The notes beneath the pieces are model-generated. The model had not been told where the DNA came from. It searched no databases and saw only the letters and a program-made list of their open reading frames with translations. A DNA stretch of 64,000 bases, taken from the NCBI RefSeq assembly GCF_000765475.1, contig NZ_JRHO01000009.1, positions 310,001-374,000 of the forward strand, read 5' to 3'. The stretch comes from Methanococcoides methylutens (lineage in GTDB: Archaea; Halobacteriota; Methanosarcinia; Methanosarcinales; Methanosarcinaceae). Of the stretch, positions 994-8,883 are shown one piece after another. The translations under genes and the position numbers were made by a program. Positions within the stretch are counted from its first letter, which is position 1. Each line of letters begins with the position of its first letter.

Positions 994-1082
994 TAATTTC
1001 CATCTGAAGTATGGCTTTAACATATAAAATACATTTGATATTATTTGTATTTTGAATTCCAAGTATAATGTTCCTTGTGGGA

Positions 1083-1125
1083 TTTTGCACTTTTATGAAA
1101 ACGACCCCTTCACGAAAGTGCAAAA
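1083..1125. repeat. inverted repeat between KAP and transglutaminase-like genes
   Basis: An 11-bp arm TTTTGCACTTT at 1083-1093 is perfectly repeated in inverse at 1115-1125, with a 21-bp spacer. On the minus strand the spacer includes a TTCGTGAAGGGGTC element that resembles the motif repeated at 3571-3749. The structure lies in the 257-bp gap after the KAP stop codon (1251) and before the ATG at 993. It could be a terminator for the KAP transcript or an operator for the downstream gene. Confidence 0.6.
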
Positions 1126-1250
1126 GAAACATTCATAAGCTTAAAAAATGAAAATCAGTTCTCATTCATTTCCAGTACACAAATATGAAATATCTGATGG
1201 GATGGGGAATACTTCGAACAATGGTTTTGAAATAATGAAGAATGAAATTA

Positions 1251-3410
1251 TCACTCTTCATAATCGGGTGTTGGTTTGCTCATTTTTCCAATTTCTTCCA
1301 AGCAAACTTCAAGAGCATGTTTTTCTTTCTTATTTAAAAGGATATAATTTGAAGATTCTTTTATCAGTATTATCCTTTCTTTTATATTATCCAGCCCTGT
1401 AATTTCTTTCAATGCATCAACATTAATCTTATCGGTAACTTCCGATAAATAATTTGTAATAGTATGGCTATAGCTCTTTGTCATCATGCTTGCTATTAGC
1501 TTTGGCAATGCAACGTCATTTGAAACTATGTTTTGCATGAACTCTTCATGTGGATAATCACTATTCCATTGTTTCCACAGGATAAGAATAGTATATATGT
1601 GAGTGGATTCTATTAAAGTTCCATTTTCTGCCCATCTTCGAATTTTATCACAAGCTAACTTTTCCAACCTTTGAAGTTGTTCTAAATTTATCAGTTGTTG
1701 TTCTTCAGGAATATCAGGTTCTTTATAGTCATACTTGCCATGTTTTTCGTTTTGTAAATCAATTTCCCATACAAATGTGTATAGACTATTATGTGTATTA
1801 TTGATGCTCCTTTCTAAAATATTAAATCGTTCTTCTTGAGTTTCAATTTGCTCAAGTAGTGAAGAAATAATCCAATGAATCTTCAACGAAGTCCCATAAA
1901 ATATAGATTCATCTTCAGGGAATGAATCGCCAACTTCCATAATTGCATTAACTAAGCTTTCAATGTTATCAGCAGGTATTTTGTCAGTGTAATCGGGGAA
2001 TACCTTGAGGAAATCTAAAAGCTTATTATCTTCGATGATTTCTTCAATGAATTTGGAAATTTCGGCAACATCATCTGTATTGCAAAGCGTATTTATTTCA
2101 GACTGTGATAACTTTCCTTCTGATAGAGCAAACTTGAAATATCTATCAAAAACATCATCACTGCATACACGGCGATTCTTTCTCCATCTATCCAAAAAAC
2201 TGCCATCATGACTATGAATTTCATAGAGAGAAGTAATTTTTGGGAATAATACTGTCATATATTCTTTCAGGAACTTTTTAGACTCATCATCAGTTTCCTC
2301 AATTATTTCATCACAGATTCGCTTATGCACATCTCTTTGTGATTCGGCTTGACGCAGCATTATACCCGCAAAAACATGTTTGTTAGATTTAATTCCGTGA
2401 TAAACTTCCGGTAAAAATACCTGAATTGCAGTTATTGCAATGAAATCAATGACATTTACTTCTTCTTTTATTATTTCATAATTAAAGGTTAAAACGTTAA
2501 TATATCGGTTTATATCTCTTATATTTTTAAAGAAGTATTTGAAACCACTATGATAGACATTGCCCCAATATACTCTGTCAAAATCAACGTGTGGATTACT
2601 TTTAATAATCTTATCAAGTTGCTCAAATAACAGTGTTTCATATTCCTGCATTGAATAGTCTGGTAATTCAAAAGGAACCTGTATTATTTTTTCCAGATAT
2701 TGATTTCCATTCCCACATTGTTCAGCTACCAGAGCTTTTGCAACAACTTCTCTATCAAAAGTTAGAATATATGTAGTGTTTGGAAAATCAGCTATAGACT
2801 TAACAAGTTGGAATATTTGTCTAATTTCAACCTTATTCAACCGGTCAATATCATCAATCACAACAATTATGCGAGCATCAAGTTCACGTAAATTTTTGGA
2901 GATTTCCTCTTTTGTTTCTTCTAAACCCTTTTCAAGATAATTACTCGCAGCATCAGTACCATCAGCAACAGCTTCTGATGCTGTTGAAGTAATTGATGCA
3001 AATGCACTAATTCCTGGAACATATGATAATGGTGAAATGATTTTTGAATATGTTCTCAGCAATTTCCCAGCAGTTTTCAACAAAACACTATAATCTACTT
3101 TCTCAAAAGTATTCGATAATTGCTTAAAAAACTGCTCTATCAATTGATTTTGATTCGAAAAATTCCAAGGATTAAAATTTATGATAATTGGTTTTTCGTT
3201 ATTATCTAAATTTGATGCTTTTTCTTCAACGTGTTCCAAAGCCATGTTGATAAATGATGTTTTTCCAGACCCCCATTTTCCATAAATACCTATTACATGA
3301 CATTCTTTGCTTGAGTCTACTAATAATGCATCACCTAATGCCTTAGCAACACCTTTCCTTCCAAGAGCATCATCATCACTTGATTTAATTGGTTTGTCTG
3401 GATTAATCAT
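1251..3410 (-). CDS. KAP family P-loop NTPase
   Basis: This is a 719-residue protein of the KAP NTPase class. Walker A is GKWGSGKTS near residues 44-52 and Walker B is VVIDDIDRL near residue 180, the double-Asp form typical of KAP. A region of moderate hydrophobicity between the two motifs (around LSYVPGISAFASI) corresponds to the membrane-associated insertion of many KAP proteins, though it is weak here. The C-terminal half is alpha-helical and unrecognised. I place the start at the ATG at 3410 because AGGTG lies 9 bases before it; a GTG at 3422 overlaps that Shine-Dalgarno. KAP NTPases are common in phage-defence loci and plasmids. The AT-rich composition and neighbours fit an accessory origin. 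Confidence 0.85.
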   Translation of the reverse strand: MINPDKPIKSSDDDALGRKGVAKALGDALLVDSSKECHVIGIYGKWGSGKTSFINMALEHVEEKASNLDNNEKPIIINFNPWNFSNQNQLIEQFFKQLSNTFEKVDYSVLLKTAGKLLRTYSKIISPLSYVPGISAFASITSTASEAVADGTDAASNYLEKGLEETKEEISKNLRELDARIIVVIDDIDRLNKVEIRQIFQLVKSIADFPNTTYILTFDREVVAKALVAEQCGNGNQYLEKIIQVPFELPDYSMQEYETLLFEQLDKIIKSNPHVDFDRVYWGNVYHSGFKYFFKNIRDINRYINVLTFNYEIIKEEVNVIDFIAITAIQVFLPEVYHGIKSNKHVFAGIMLRQAESQRDVHKRICDEIIEETDDESKKFLKEYMTVLFPKITSLYEIHSHDGSFLDRWRKNRRVCSDDVFDRYFKFALSEGKLSQSEINTLCNTDDVAEISKFIEEIIEDNKLLDFLKVFPDYTDKIPADNIESLVNAIMEVGDSFPEDESIFYGTSLKIHWIISSLLEQIETQEERFNILERSINNTHNSLYTFVWEIDLQNEKHGKYDYKEPDIPEEQQLINLEQLQRLEKLACDKIRRWAENGTLIESTHIYTILILWKQWNSDYPHEEFMQNIVSNDVALPKLIASMMTKSYSHTITNYLSEVTDKINVDALKEITGLDNIKERIILIKESSNYILLNKKEKHALEVCLEEIGKMSKPTPDYEE

Positions 3411-3570
3411 TTTATAGCACACCTTCTATTTTGTTGATGAAGTATCTACATGCTATAAGATTTTATCGAAAATATGTTGATGCATGCACAAAAATTTCAA
3501 TGAAATAAACCAGAACTATTTAATTGGAACTTCACACTTTCTCCAAAACATTGACTTCATAAAAAATAAT

Positions 3571-3749
3571 ACTTCGACAAAGGGGTGTCATTGATAAACT
3601 TCGATGAAGGGGTCTGTTCATTTATATACAAAATGAATACTTCGATGGAGGTCTATTTAAAGTATATATATGAATAATACTTCGATGAAGGGGTTAAACT
3701 TCGACAAGGGTTATCAGCTCTGTATAAAATAATACTTCGATAAAGGGGT
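3571..3749 (+). repeat. six-copy degenerate 16-bp motif array
   Basis: Copies of a motif close to ACTTCGATGAAGGGGT begin at 3571, 3598, 3639, 3679, 3698 and 3734, all in the same orientation and mostly preceded by AATA or TAA. Variation is confined to the middle (ATGA, ACAA, ATGG, ATAA) and the length of the G run. The consensus holds a small dyad (CTTC-GAT-GAAG) followed by a G-string. Spacing is irregular (19-41 bp). The array fills the AT-rich 359-bp gap (3411-3769) upstream of the KAP gene. Candidates are binding sites of a regulator or initiator protein, or an iteron/ORB-like origin element. Confidence 0.75.
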
Positions 3750-3769: not shown

Positions 3770-3979
3770 TTATAACCTATCTTTTATTACAGCCAGATTA
3801 TCATCAATTTTTCTCATAGCATCTAATGCTGCTGACAGTTCTTCCACAAAACTATTTTCTTTTAGATAGTCAATATTATCTTCCAGATGCATCTTCTTTG
3901 TGTTCAGAAAATTATATTCCGATACAAGTTCAAAATAAGTGTAACCTTCAATCTTATTTATGAAAATATCTCTATCCAA
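3770..3979 (-). CDS. small coiled-coil protein of unknown function
   Basis: This is a 69-residue acidic, highly helical protein with heptad-like spacing (for example DNIDYLKENSFVEELSAALD). No known family is recognised. Translation probably starts at a TTG at 3979, with GGTGA five bases upstream. It lies 11 bp behind the gene ending at 3991, so the two are almost certainly co-transcribed. It could be an antitoxin-like or adaptor partner of a neighbour, but no motif decides this. Confidence 0.6.
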   Translation of the reverse strand: MDRDIFINKIEGYTYFELVSEYNFLNTKKMHLEDNIDYLKENSFVEELSAALDAMRKIDDNLAVIKDRL

Positions 3980-3990
3980 TTATGTCACCT

Positions 3991-5244
3991 TCAATAATCT
4001 AATATTTCCACTACATCATTTGTTGGCGAATAGGCTGCACCTTTTCTTTTAAGTTCATCTATAGCGTATTCAATAAGCCAGTGGTCGATGGTCACATGTT
4101 TTGGAACTTCAGCAATAGAAAACGATACCCTTGTGCCAAAAGTATCTTTAAGTTCATCATATGCTCTTTGGGCTTCTGCTGATAATTTATCTTTTCCAGA
4201 ACGTGATAGGTTTGGAATATCAATTCTTGATGAATAGTGAAACATATCCATCCATAAATCTACACATTCATCAACATATTCTGGTGCTACTTTATCTTTA
4301 AATTTTAATCTCGCAAAAGCAGAGCTTATTTTAGAAGGAGTAGTGCCAATGTCTTGACTGTAATTAACAGCATTTGCAGCAACAAAAGCATCCCTTACTT
4401 CATAGATTTTATCTCTTACGTGCTTATTTGTCTTTTCAGATATTTCAGGTTCGAAAAGCAAAGCATCTAACATTTTTGCACGCATTAATGGAGCTTCATA
4501 ATAAAGAGTTTCTTTATATTGTAATGGTTTTTTAAACTCAATTTCTTCTACTAATGCCATTGGAACATGGACAGAAAGTTCTTTAGGATTACTTACTGAA
4601 AGGTTCACTTCTTTGCTTCTGGACGGATTTAGTTTTTTTTCTGTATCTAATTGGTTAAAATAGTACTCTGATTTAGTCTTTTTAAAATCAGGTGGTATCA
4701 CTTGCATCAACCGTTTGAACTCATTCCAATGTTTTTTCTTAGCTGTGAGAACAGCAGAATCAATTCCGCCCTTTCCATTAGAACCGATTACTGGTGACGA
4801 CATTGTACAGAGAGCAAGACAAAATGAAAGTGGTTCAATGTAATCTTCAGTATGCATGAATGGAATCTTGAAATATTCAATATACTCTTCAGGGTCAAGC
4901 GATTCCCTATGGATAAATTTGTTTGGACTTATTTTGTCCCAACGACTGACATATTTGACATTCAGTTTTCTAAAAGATGTTCTTGTTCCGAGTACTTTAT
5001 GTTCAGATTCATATGAAGCAACCTTTACACATTCCCCTTCTTTTGGAAAATCTCCATTTTCTATCACATATACTTCGTTTTTAGGAGTTTTGAGAAAAGG
5101 CGATGGGTCGAGATAAAATCGTCTACGGCTTCTTTTATCATATCTGACAAAACCAATATCTTCATTTTCGAAAATTAAATCATATTCAGTAGCAGAAAAC
5201 TCATATCCTCGTTCCCTGTTGTTCAACGATTTTGTTAGTGACAA
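3991..5244 (-). CDS. unknown protein with MCM C-terminus-like region
   Basis: This 417-residue protein probably starts at a TTG at 5244, with GGGAG seven bases upstream. The N-terminal 250 residues are unrecognised and contain no Walker motifs. From about residue 250 to the end, the order of elements recalls the C-terminal part of MCM helicases: a helical lid-like stretch (SSAFARLKFKDKVAPEYVD) and a terminal winged-helix-like segment (AIDELKRKGAAYSPTNDVVE). The central AAA+ ATPase is absent, so a helicase function is not supported. A DNA-binding or initiator-like role is possible. It sits between the HEPN gene (69-bp gap) and the small coiled-coil gene (11-bp gap). The MCM comparison is by eye and tentative. 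Confidence 0.5.
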   Translation of the reverse strand: MSLTKSLNNRERGYEFSATEYDLIFENEDIGFVRYDKRSRRRFYLDPSPFLKTPKNEVYVIENGDFPKEGECVKVASYESEHKVLGTRTSFRKLNVKYVSRWDKISPNKFIHRESLDPEEYIEYFKIPFMHTEDYIEPLSFCLALCTMSSPVIGSNGKGGIDSAVLTAKKKHWNEFKRLMQVIPPDFKKTKSEYYFNQLDTEKKLNPSRSKEVNLSVSNPKELSVHVPMALVEEIEFKKPLQYKETLYYEAPLMRAKMLDALLFEPEISEKTNKHVRDKIYEVRDAFVAANAVNYSQDIGTTPSKISSAFARLKFKDKVAPEYVDECVDLWMDMFHYSSRIDIPNLSRSGKDKLSAEAQRAYDELKDTFGTRVSFSIAEVPKHVTIDHWLIEYAIDELKRKGAAYSPTNDVVEILDY

Positions 5245-5313: not shown

Positions 5314-6102
5314 TCATATATCTCCCTTCTGAAAGACAACTGTAGATTCAATTTGACGATATAGATAACTCATTAAACTAAGAACATCCAATGCATCTTC
5401 ACGCGTCATTTTCCAGTGAAGCTCTGGTTCATGACCTTGCGGATTTCGTATTGCACTCATGAGTCCAGCACAAAGATGCATTAATCCCTGTTGTTCATTA
5501 CGTTCTGTTTCTGTTTGTTGTGCATTGAGCTTCAGGCATCCCTTAAGTGAAAGAGCCTCAGTCATTAATTTGGAACCATGTTTATCAGTATCAGCTTTTT
5601 CACTGACATATTTATCAAATGCTTTACAACATTCAAAGACGGCGTGAAAATATCGCCCTTCATTAAAGAGCTTAAATGCATGCTTTTTTATTTCAGGATG
5701 ATAATGTCGAGAATTGAATAATTTAGCATCTTCTGTGACCTTTGATTGCAGTTTAGGTTCAATGCTTGAATCTTTAATAATTTTCCCATTATCGTTAACT
5801 CTTAGTTTGTAATAACTTAGTATTTCATTGACCTGCTCCAATAATCTGGAAAAACCATCTTTATCCTGGATAAATTCTTCAGGACTGCAAAGCTGTTCAA
5901 TCACTTTTGCAATTGCAAAATAGCCATTTGTGTTCTGTATATCTTTTAATCTATCATACACAAATCGCCATTTCGTTGTTCCATCATGTTGAATATCATT
6001 ATATCCAATCTTGTGAAAGAATTCAGTAATTTCAGAACCAGTGTACTTGTCACCAATTATTTTTGAAAGATTCTCAAGTGCTGAATGTGAAAAATTATCC
6101 AT
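5314..6102 (-). CDS. AbiJ-NTD3/Ymh (TIGR02391-type) HEPN RNase-like protein
   Basis: This 262-residue protein has two parts. The N-terminal domain (first 75 residues, with TGSEITEFFHKIGYND) fits the AbiJ N-terminal domain type 3. The C-terminal Ymh/TIGR02391 domain ends in a HEPN helix bearing RNPQGH at residues 219-224, the Rx4H catalytic motif of HEPN ribonucleases, followed by the typical HWKMTREDALDVLSLMS helix. Such proteins are known or proposed abortive-infection or toxin RNases. I choose the ATG at 6102 because AGGTGA lies eight to nine bases upstream; a GTG at 6114 overlaps that site. It follows the CoiA-like gene after 50 bp and probably shares its operon. Its trigger and target RNA are unknown. 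Confidence 0.85.
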   Translation of the reverse strand: MDNFSHSALENLSKIIGDKYTGSEITEFFHKIGYNDIQHDGTTKWRFVYDRLKDIQNTNGYFAIAKVIEQLCSPEEFIQDKDGFSRLLEQVNEILSYYKLRVNDNGKIIKDSSIEPKLQSKVTEDAKLFNSRHYHPEIKKHAFKLFNEGRYFHAVFECCKAFDKYVSEKADTDKHGSKLMTEALSLKGCLKLNAQQTETERNEQQGLMHLCAGLMSAIRNPQGHEPELHWKMTREDALDVLSLMSYLYRQIESTVVFQKGDI

Positions 6103-6152
6103 GCTATATGTCACCTATTAATTTATTGTACAGAAAGTGGAACTCATATGAA

Positions 6153-7364
6153 TTAATTCGATACAATCTCACTGATGGCTCTTTTCAATTTATCATCAGA
6201 TTTTCCGAAAACATATTTGCTGTAACATTTAGCACAACGATAGATGCTAATTTCAAATCGTGAATCAATTTCTGTAACAGGTATTACTGAAATGTTGTGA
6301 CCTTCGTTTCCACAATCAAAGCAAATGCCTTTTGTTCCCAAAGCCAGTAGTTTCTGTTTTTTAGCTTCTATTTCAGTTGTTCTCTGTTCATCTCTCAATT
6401 GATATTCTGTTCGAAGCCGCTTTTGTTCTTCTTCTCTCAACAAGCGTTCTTCTTTAAGTCGCTTTTGTTCTTCTGCAAGTCTTATCTGCCTTTTCTGCTC
6501 TTGTTGTCTTTTGATTTCATCTTCTTTTTGCCGAGCAAGGCGACGTTTCAGCTCTATTTTTTCGAATACGGTTCTTTCATTGCATCTGTCAAGTTCTGAA
6601 AACAAAGAATATAAAGCGGCATTTAAATCAGCTTGAAAAATCTTTTCACGTAAATGCAAATTTTCCATTAGCATCCTTGAAGTTGTAAGGACGTGCACGT
6701 TGCAACCATTGCGGTACAGGCTGAATGTTATTTTTGAATATTTGCCTTTATGATAATCGAGCAAATCGTCTTCATTATCTACGTTTATATAGATTACATC
6801 AATTCCATTTTGCAAATAGTATTCACTCTTTTCCTCGGAGTCTTCATGTTTGTGAACAATTTCGATTGCTGTTACTACATTACCTGCTTCATCATACAAT
6901 GATAGGTCTGGAATGAAGCCATCCACCGCTTTTTCTACTTCAATTCGTGAAGCTCCATTAACCACATTATGAGTGAATTCTCTTTGTTCAGTGAATGGAT
7001 TCTTACGAAGGTGGGGAGAATATTTGGTCTTTTGTGAGGTAGATTCCGGTATACCATATGCAATTCGAGTGTATTCCTTCCCATAATCGGGACACTCAAA
7101 AACCAATGGGAATGAGGTATTTTTGTCAAGGCAATCTTTTATTTTTTGATAGAATAACCATTTTGTGTCCTGATGTAGTGGGGTTTCGCTGACATGGTCA
7201 ACTTTGACAAGATGCCTGAAGTGATGTTCATTTTTATTTCCCTTTGCTGAAATCATGGTTGAATCGCATTCAGGACATGTGAACTTTGGTCTGTTTGTTA
7301 ATGGAACACTGGCTATGTGCCAAAATATCCCATCTTCATCTTTAGCAACACTATATTGTACGAT
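6153..7364 (-). CDS. CoiA-like nuclease-domain protein with coiled coil and C-terminal zinc ribbon; apparent ATC start
   Basis: The frame is open from a TGA at 7379-7377 to 6153. The first ATG (7256) would remove a conserved CoiA-type zinc site, Cys30-x2-Cys33 with HHFRH at residues 47-51. No ATG, GTG or TTG lies in frame upstream. An ATC at 7364 lies six bases after GGGGA (7375-7371) and gives 403 residues. The middle resembles a restriction-endonuclease-like core (PDLSLYDEAG, then AIEIVHKH; Asp153, Glu168). A charged coiled coil rich in Q, K, R and E covers about 270-335, and a CxxC...CxxC ribbon about 350-385. CoiA homologues act in competence or DNA processing; here the context suggests DNA sensing or cleavage in defence. 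It heads the minus-strand operon. Confidence 0.75.
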   Translation of the reverse strand: MVQYSVAKDEDGIFWHIASVPLTNRPKFTCPECDSTMISAKGNKNEHHFRHLVKVDHVSETPLHQDTKWLFYQKIKDCLDKNTSFPLVFECPDYGKEYTRIAYGIPESTSQKTKYSPHLRKNPFTEQREFTHNVVNGASRIEVEKAVDGFIPDLSLYDEAGNVVTAIEIVHKHEDSEEKSEYYLQNGIDVIYINVDNEDDLLDYHKGKYSKITFSLYRNGCNVHVLTTSRMLMENLHLREKIFQADLNAALYSLFSELDRCNERTVFEKIELKRRLARQKEDEIKRQQEQKRQIRLAEEQKRLKEERLLREEEQKRLRTEYQLRDEQRTTEIEAKKQKLLALGTKGICFDCGNEGHNISVIPVTEIDSRFEISIYRCAKCYSKYVFGKSDDKLKRAISEIVSN

Positions 7365-7692: not shown

Positions 7693-8883
7693 TCATAATC
7701 CGTCTACAAATGTGCCTATCCTGTCAATAGCTTCCTTGATATCTTCCCTTGATGCTGCATAGGCACAGCGAAGGAATCCTGCTCCGGTATCTCCGAAGAT
7801 ATCTCCTGGGATTGTAACAACGTTCTGCTCTTGAAGCAGCCTTTCTGCAAATTCGTCAGATGTCAGCCCTGTGCTCTTGATGGATGGGAATGCATAGAAT
7901 GCTCCTTTTGGGTTGAAGCAATCCAGTCCTATATCGTTCAATCCTCCAACGATGAGCTTCCTGCGCCTGTCGTACTCCCGGACCATTTTGCTAACTTCTT
8001 CCTCTCCGTTGCGAAGTGCTTCGATAGCACCAACCTGTGCTGTTATTGGGGCGCAGAGCATGGAATACTGGTGGATCAGCATCATCGAATTGATGATCTC
8101 CGGGGCTGCCATTGCATATGCCATCCTGAATCCTGTCATTGCATATGCCTTTGAGAATCCGTTCAGCATGATGGTCCGGTCACGCATTCCTTCAAGGGCT
8201 GAAAAACATGTATGCTTTCCCTCGTAGGTAAGTCTCTCGTAGACGTCATCTGATATCATCATAATATCATGTTCTACAATGACATCTGCAATGGCTTCCA
8301 GTTCATCTCTGTCCATTGTGGCGCCGGTAGGATTATTGGGATAGTTTATGATGACTGCTTTTGTTTTGTTCGTAATAGCAGCTTCTATCTCTTCGGCTGT
8401 GATACTGAAATCATTCACTCCTTTTGCACCAATGGTAACAGGAACTCCGCCTGCGAATATTATGGAGGGCACGTAAGCCACATATGATGGCTGTACTACG
8501 ATGATCTCATCACCAGGATTTGTGATTGCCCGTATCGCAAGGTCAAGTGCTTCACTTACACCTGTGGTGACAAGTATCTCGTCGTTTGGGTCATAGTATA
8601 CATTGTGCCTTTTTGTGTATGACCTTGAGATCTCTTCACGAAGCTCCATAAGGCCATAGTTAGAGGTGTATGATGTTTCCCCATGTTCGATTGAGTGTAT
8701 GCACGCTTCCCTTATGTGCCATGGTGTCACATAATCAGGTTCTCCAACTCCAAGGGATATGACGTCTTCGCTGTCTGACGCCATGTCGAAGAACTTTCGA
8801 ATACCCGATGGGGGTACTTTTTGCATACTGTTCGATACAAACCGGGAGGGGTTACATTGTGTTCTCAAGATAGATGCCTCCAT
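7693..8883 (-). CDS. PLP-dependent class I/II aminotransferase
   Basis: This 396-residue fold-type I aminotransferase is of the archaeal aspartate/aromatic (AspC/Aro8-like) kind. Visible marks are SLGVGEPDY near the N-terminus, the NYPNNPTGA segment, the ISDDVYERLTYEG loop, and the Schiff-base region LNGFSKAYAMTGFRMAY whose Lys binds PLP. Length is normal for the family. The Lrp/AsnC regulator gene lies 35 bp upstream on the same strand, a pairing that suggests control by an amino acid. Substrate cannot be fixed from sequence; aromatic amino acids, aspartate or alanine are possible. Confidence 0.9.
   Translation of the reverse strand: MEASILRTQCNPSRFVSNSMQKVPPSGIRKFFDMASDSEDVISLGVGEPDYVTPWHIREACIHSIEHGETSYTSNYGLMELREEISRSYTKRHNVYYDPNDEILVTTGVSEALDLAIRAITNPGDEIIVVQPSYVAYVPSIIFAGGVPVTIGAKGVNDFSITAEEIEAAITNKTKAVIINYPNNPTGATMDRDELEAIADVIVEHDIMMISDDVYERLTYEGKHTCFSALEGMRDRTIMLNGFSKAYAMTGFRMAYAMAAPEIINSMMLIHQYSMLCAPITAQVGAIEALRNGEEEVSKMVREYDRRRKLIVGGLNDIGLDCFNPKGAFYAFPSIKSTGLTSDEFAERLLQEQNVVTIPGDIFGDTGAGFLRCAYAASREDIKEAIDRIGTFVDGL

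Follow-up and report, generated by a model that had tools for sequence, protein, structure and literature searches.

The window, a stretch of 64,000 nucleotides of the genome of the Methanosarcinaceae archaeon Methanococcoides methylutens, holds an AT-rich gap between a gene for a KAP-family P-loop NTPase and a gene for an MCM-related protein, and six direct copies of a AATACTTCGAYRAAGGGGT-like word are crowded into this gap. Table 1 lists the array and the features around it, all of which belong to an element of about 20.5 kb whose right end lies some 4 kb from the array.

Table 1. Positions in the window of the array copies, the neighbouring genes and the right boundary of the element.
Feature	Position	Strand	Sequence or remark
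Single GAATACTTCGAA core, no G-run, between the KAP and transglutaminase-like genes	1207..1218	+	
KAP-family P-loop NTPase gene	1251..3410	-	PADLOC PifA model
KAP gene leader/promoter region	3410..3560	-	~90 bp by the ATG 82–83% identical to G092
Array copy 1	3568..3586	+	AATACTTCGACAAAGGGGT
Array copy 2	3595..3613	+	TAAACTTCGATGAAGGGGT
Array copy 3, degenerate	3636..3654	+	AATACTTCGATGGAGGTCT
Array copy 4	3676..3694	+	AATACTTCGATGAAGGGGT
Array copy 5, degenerate	3695..3712	+	TAAACTTCGACAAGGGTT; 1 base short
Array copy 6	3731..3749	+	AATACTTCGATAAAGGGGT
69-aa ORF between the MCM-like gene and the array	3770..3979	-	no family match
417-aa MCM-related protein	3991..5244	-	N-terminal strand-rich domain, AAA-lid, winged helix
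Hypoth_ymh protein, element cargo	5314..6114	-	TIGR02391
367-aa protein, element cargo	6153..7256	-	no family match
Right 354-bp direct repeat (attR side), 3' end of aminotransferase gene	7693..8046	.	

An integrated element bounded by 354-bp direct repeats

Direct repeats of 354 bp, 98% identical to each other and corresponding to the 3' end of an aminotransferase gene, bound the element. The left repeat lies 20.9 kb upstream, beyond the window (C9:296835-297188), and a tyrosine integrase gene starts about 90 bp inward of it. In three genomes of the genus, G096 (97% identical), G101 and G100, the flanks continue unbroken through a single copy of the 354-bp stretch; the more distant G095, G094 and G093 show the same join, and the element is absent from all six. 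The left repeat runs on into DNA that lies downstream in the genomes of the relatives, and the pattern of mismatches between the repeats agrees with a crossover located somewhere from position ~125 to position 351 of the repeat. Since att repeats, an integrase and an uninterrupted site in relatives occur together, the island is an integrated element; the original prediction, which had an integrated replicon in one of its two best ideas, could not see it.

Its cargo comprises P-loop helicase-like, RNase III-like, Abi_alpha, zinc-ribbon/C2H2 and transglutaminase-like proteins, together with the KAP NTPase, the MCM-related protein, a Hypoth_ymh protein and proteins of no recognised kind. The core of a related element in G119 (L199 11411-17620) encodes an integrase (63%), a helicase-like protein (43%) and a relative of the 445-aa protein; the array was not found in this core.

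Other repeats occur in the same element. Palindromes of the type TTTTGCACTTTCGTGAAGGGGTCGTTTTCATAAAAGTGCA lie at window positions 1073-1125 and at L004 6120-6172 and 6196-6238; two of them sit inside a 53-bp duplication that is 100% identical, the third is a variant, and their alignment scores reveal no significant relation to the array. A pair of 90-bp repeats, 87% identical and with the inverted ends TTCATTTTACAGAGGAAATG/CATTTCCTCTGTAAAATGAA, shares the non-coding stretch of the L004 palindromes (5478-5567 and 6284-6373).

Composition and confinement of the array

The six words start at positions 3571, 3598, 3639, 3679, 3698 and 3734, where the original prediction had placed them, and all six are read on the plus strand. 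Two are exact, two near and two degenerate: copies 2 and 4 share the exact sequence ACTTCGATGAAGGGGT, from which copies 1 (ACTTCGACAAAGGGGT) and 6 (ACTTCGATAAAGGGGT) differ by two bases and one base, respectively, while copy 3 (ACTTCGATGGAGGTCT) is 81% alike and copy 5 (ACTTCGACAAGGGTTA) has lost one base and most of the G-run. A longer unit beginning with AATACTTCGA is common to four copies. The dyad noted at the outset, CTTC-GAT-GAAG, is perfect only in copies 2 and 4, so that what the copies conserve is not a palindrome.

The gap as a whole has 27–34% GC and the spacers only 21%, and the intervals between copies are irregular (27, 41, 40, 19 and 36 nt). In 300 first-order Markov simulations of the gap, at most five copies (mean 3.1) occurred with up to four mismatches, compared with six in the array, and at most three with up to three mismatches, compared with five. 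A motif scan of the whole 2.5-Mb genome confirmed that the core 14-mer with up to one mismatch is confined to the array; at two mismatches, its frequency outside the array equals the background level of the reversed control. The start of the longer unit, AATACTTCGA, was found at five places in the element and nowhere in the 89 kb that flank it.

Beyond this genome, no further array of the word was found in viral_contigs, where the two matches to a relaxed pattern of two copies seem due to chance, and neither did this collection yield relatives of the MCM-like, integrase, helicase-like, KAP or pMETHO01 Orc proteins. The 15 matches to the word in genome_contigs are mostly coding or unrelated repeats; there was no phage match, and plasmid matches were negligible.

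Several further interpretations were rejected. As an RNA element, the leader strand folds no better than its shuffles (z -0.5) and has no Rfam family above the cut-off; a DNA hairpin is weak and limited to copies 2 and 4; a host regulon is not indicated, with GAATACTTCGAA at one mismatch found at the control frequency or only slightly above it. Alignment scores between the array and three GCACTTTCG(T/C)GAAGGGGT sites of the element stay within the range of simulated sequences. Type III toxin-antitoxin repeats, CRISPR and integrase arm sites were set aside because of the anatomy: the units are short and irregular, matching genes are lacking, and att is 4 kb away.

Comparison with origin recognition boxes and plasmid sites

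The host encodes three Orc1/Cdc6 proteins (genes at C14:956883, C5:117226 and 45.46 kb in the window). Upstream of the first gene lie classical origin recognition boxes (ORBs), TTTCCAAACGAAATAGAGGGGT, CTCCAGTCGAAACCATAGGGTCACCCC and GGAATGGAAACAGAGGGGT. Typical origins carry inverted ORBs around an unwinding region; in the array, all six copies are direct. No orc1/cdc6 gene adjoins the array and none was found among the ORFs of the element, nor were array-like sites present in the examined flank of the nearest orc1/cdc6 gene, at 45.46 kb, or near the C5 paralogue. The latter (G000:C5:117226-118380, with L244-L252) represents a third Orc1/Cdc6 paralogue, not of the oriC1 type, which is kept across most of the genus, and its flanks in these loci contain no ORB-like sites.

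We compared the array with a profile built from 12 ORBs of the family, those of the host genome among them. The 3' half of the box, GAYRAAGGGGT (the 11 nt with which four copies end), is outscored by only 4–7 of 219,980 positions. Over the full box, in contrast, the copies score -14 to -28 and rank 3,800–42,000 of 220,000, and the oriC1-type dyad TCCA..GAAA is not found in them. The published motifs of Methanomicrobia and of archaeal ORBs in common end in GAAA[CT][AG]A[AT]GGGGT and GAAA[TC][GA]AAGGGGT, respectively (PMC4164010), and ORBs vary among initiators while the G-string recurs, at least in haloarchaea (PMC3528665; PMC4010727). Measured against oriC1 boxes (the Methanomicrobia motif of Ori-Finder 2), the array is alike in its 3' half, A-Y-R-A-A-GGGGT, with GGGGT at the end of four of the six copies, and in having at least two sites in AT-rich intergenic DNA, and it differs in the dyad, in the orc neighbour and in its single orientation.

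Two Methanosarcinaceae plasmids offer closer parallels. Upstream of one orc1/cdc6 gene of pMETHO01 from Methanomethylovorans hollandica (WP_015313986) lie AATACTTCTATCGTGGGGT, TTTACTTTTACTGAGGGGT and the inverted ATTACTTCCATCAAGGGGT, that is, words of the form AATACTTC-N-AY-NNN-GGGGT in AT-rich intergenic DNA, and the array has the same AATACTT core, AY and GGGGT at the same spacing. Unlike the array, the plasmid region adjoins orc1/cdc6, has an inverted pair, and has its G-run lengthened to GGGGTGGGTG. We know of no experimental test of this region as an origin. Among scattered single matches of the array word in other genomes, the one in G104 falls on pMETEV01 of Methanohalobium evestigatum, 1 kb past orc1/cdc6, a lead that surfaced through a search with the array word itself. 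Between that gene and the match, immediately downstream of orc1/cdc6, are five direct copies of AATACGTTT(T)ACGTGCAGAGAGGGGT (L010:514-750, pMETEV01 1367-1603). Like the array, they are tandem, start with AATAC and end with AGGGGT; they differ in a longer middle, GTTTTACGTGCAGAG, in a regular spacing of 49–50 nt and in the adjoining orc gene.

When a profile derived from the array was run over 1.34 Mb, leaving out loci fetched with the array word, the region upstream of this pMETHO01 orc1/cdc6 gene accounted for two of the eight best sites. Only 1 of 200 column-shuffled profiles placed two of eight in any one of 66 orc flanks; the statistical support, about 1 in 200, is modest. In two plasmids of Methanosarcina, the orc genes have no array-like sites nearby. 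The Orc proteins of pMETHO01, pMETEV01 and the C5 type form no resolved clade in the tree.

Of the ORB-like layout originally perceived, then, the 3' G-string half stands, joined by the sites beside the two plasmid orc1/cdc6 genes, whereas the dyad half, the orc neighbour and the inverted arrangement are missing. Because these three defining traits are missing, we describe the array as one that may work like an ORB cluster and do not class it as an orc1/cdc6-associated origin.

Origin, operator or repeat expansion

From the sequence, we tentatively read the array as a cluster of Orc1/Cdc6-type sites, the origin or an initiator-titration cluster of the integrated replicon, while holding this to be somewhat short of an even chance. 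The reading is backed by the integration of the element, the repeats themselves, the ORB-like 3' half and the similar words beside orc1/cdc6 on two plasmids from this family. It is opposed by the lack of an orc gene in the element, the single orientation, a dyad that is not that of ORBs and the arrayless related element. Overall, the idea of an origin is better supported than could be known when it was first raised, owing to the proof of integration, the G-string half and the plasmid parallels.

The main rival reading is that the array is an upstream operator at which an activator or repressor controls the KAP-NTPase gene, and possibly also the transglutaminase-like gene behind it; we consider this unlikely though worth weighing. 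The array stops ~160 nt before the KAP ATG, where the leader conserved in the same-genus genome G092 begins; the identity of this leader to its G092 counterpart drops to 52% just before the array. A single GAATACTTCGAA stands 123 nt upstream of the KAP gene in G092, the only exact copy in that genome, and another exact copy lies in the KAP–transglutaminase gap of the window; it is these two sites that keep the operator reading alive. The occurrence of AATACTTCGA in the element but not in the flanking 89 kb also agrees with it, as do the zinc-finger proteins near the KAP gene in both loci. Leader identity as such is no proof of a special leader, since the first coding DNA of the gene is equally conserved (78–95%), the KAP proteins being about 52–54% identical. 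Moreover, the G-run characteristic of the array is missing from both the G092 site and the gap site, the array is absent at other KAP homologues, the neighbours in G092 differ so that its GAATACTTCGAA could be a remnant, and the shared cores were spotted post hoc. The operator would be bound by a regulator of the element, for example the zinc-ribbon/C2H2 or the small ribbon-helix-helix-like protein. If the operator reading were true, the array would be regulatory DNA of a KAP-type defence gene and of smaller interest. In the leader, at 3410-3500, TTATAGCA and TGCTATAA may pair into a stem around the ribosome-binding site, in a region well conserved in G092.

A functionless array, formed by neutral or selfish local expansion, appears improbable. 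Its occurrence in one genome only, the abundance of other repeats in the element (the 53-bp and 90-bp copies) and the degeneration of two copies would suit such an origin, but the copies have been kept while the 21%-GC spacers are unlike one another, and plasmid origins carry similar words.

We consider it quite improbable that the repeats are the sites of the MCM-like protein acting as a dedicated, iteron-like initiator of the element. Its gene is 240 nt from the array, and the structural model, which is confident (pLDDT 83.5, pTM 0.82), predicts a winged helix and an MCM-related fold. The best structural neighbours of the model are MCM subunits (E 3e-9, with TM only 0.3–0.4); a weak MCM_lid match stays below the Pfam cut-off, and other weak profile matches are to C-terminal parts of MCM. 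The MCM-like label given to the gene earlier therefore holds for the fold, and a recognisable AAA motor is missing. Members of this family of ~417-aa proteins are encoded by 32 of the 238 genomes in the class and by pMETHO01, and a paralogue is encoded in the same genome (G000:C14:998980-1000221). In the loci examined, the genes stand alone, with no shared neighbours and no comparable array, the paralogue included, which makes the protein a weak candidate for binding the array. The irregular spacing, without helical phasing, also speaks against it: several direct repeats in an AT-rich gap recall iteron plasmids, but the even spacing beside a rep gene that an iteron-type origin would entail is not seen here, no recognised Rep gene adjoins the array, and to our knowledge the MCM-like neighbour is not a known Rep.

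That the array consists of ordinary chromosomal ORBs of the oriC1 type can be practically dismissed, as the two share the GGGGT end but the host's own oriC1 boxes are TTTCCAAACGAAATAGAGGGGT and similar words on another contig.

Under the reading as Orc1/Cdc6-type sites, each ORB-like box would consist of an AATACTT core and an AAGGGGT G-string, and the array would have served, or would still serve, as an origin or initiator-titration cluster of the now integrated replicon. It would be bound by an Orc1/Cdc6 protein, either a host paralogue such as that at C5:117226 or an initiator since lost by the element, and replication would start at the array once the element is excised. As copies 3 and 5 lack the G-run, the origin is as likely to be decayed as live. 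A more specific version, to which we give only a small chance, is that an integrated replicon with a plasmid-type ORB array and no initiator gene uses an orphan host Orc1/Cdc6 in trans, and that the motor-less MCM-related protein beside the array helps or blocks helicase loading.

If the array does act in this way, the plasmid-type Orc1/Cdc6 proteins of methanogens would have a non-canonical ORB family that differs in its dyad half, and the element would be a testable example of dependence on a host initiator. The array would then also provide an entry point to the orphan Orc1/Cdc6, with no sites apparent nearby, that is carried by most of the genus.
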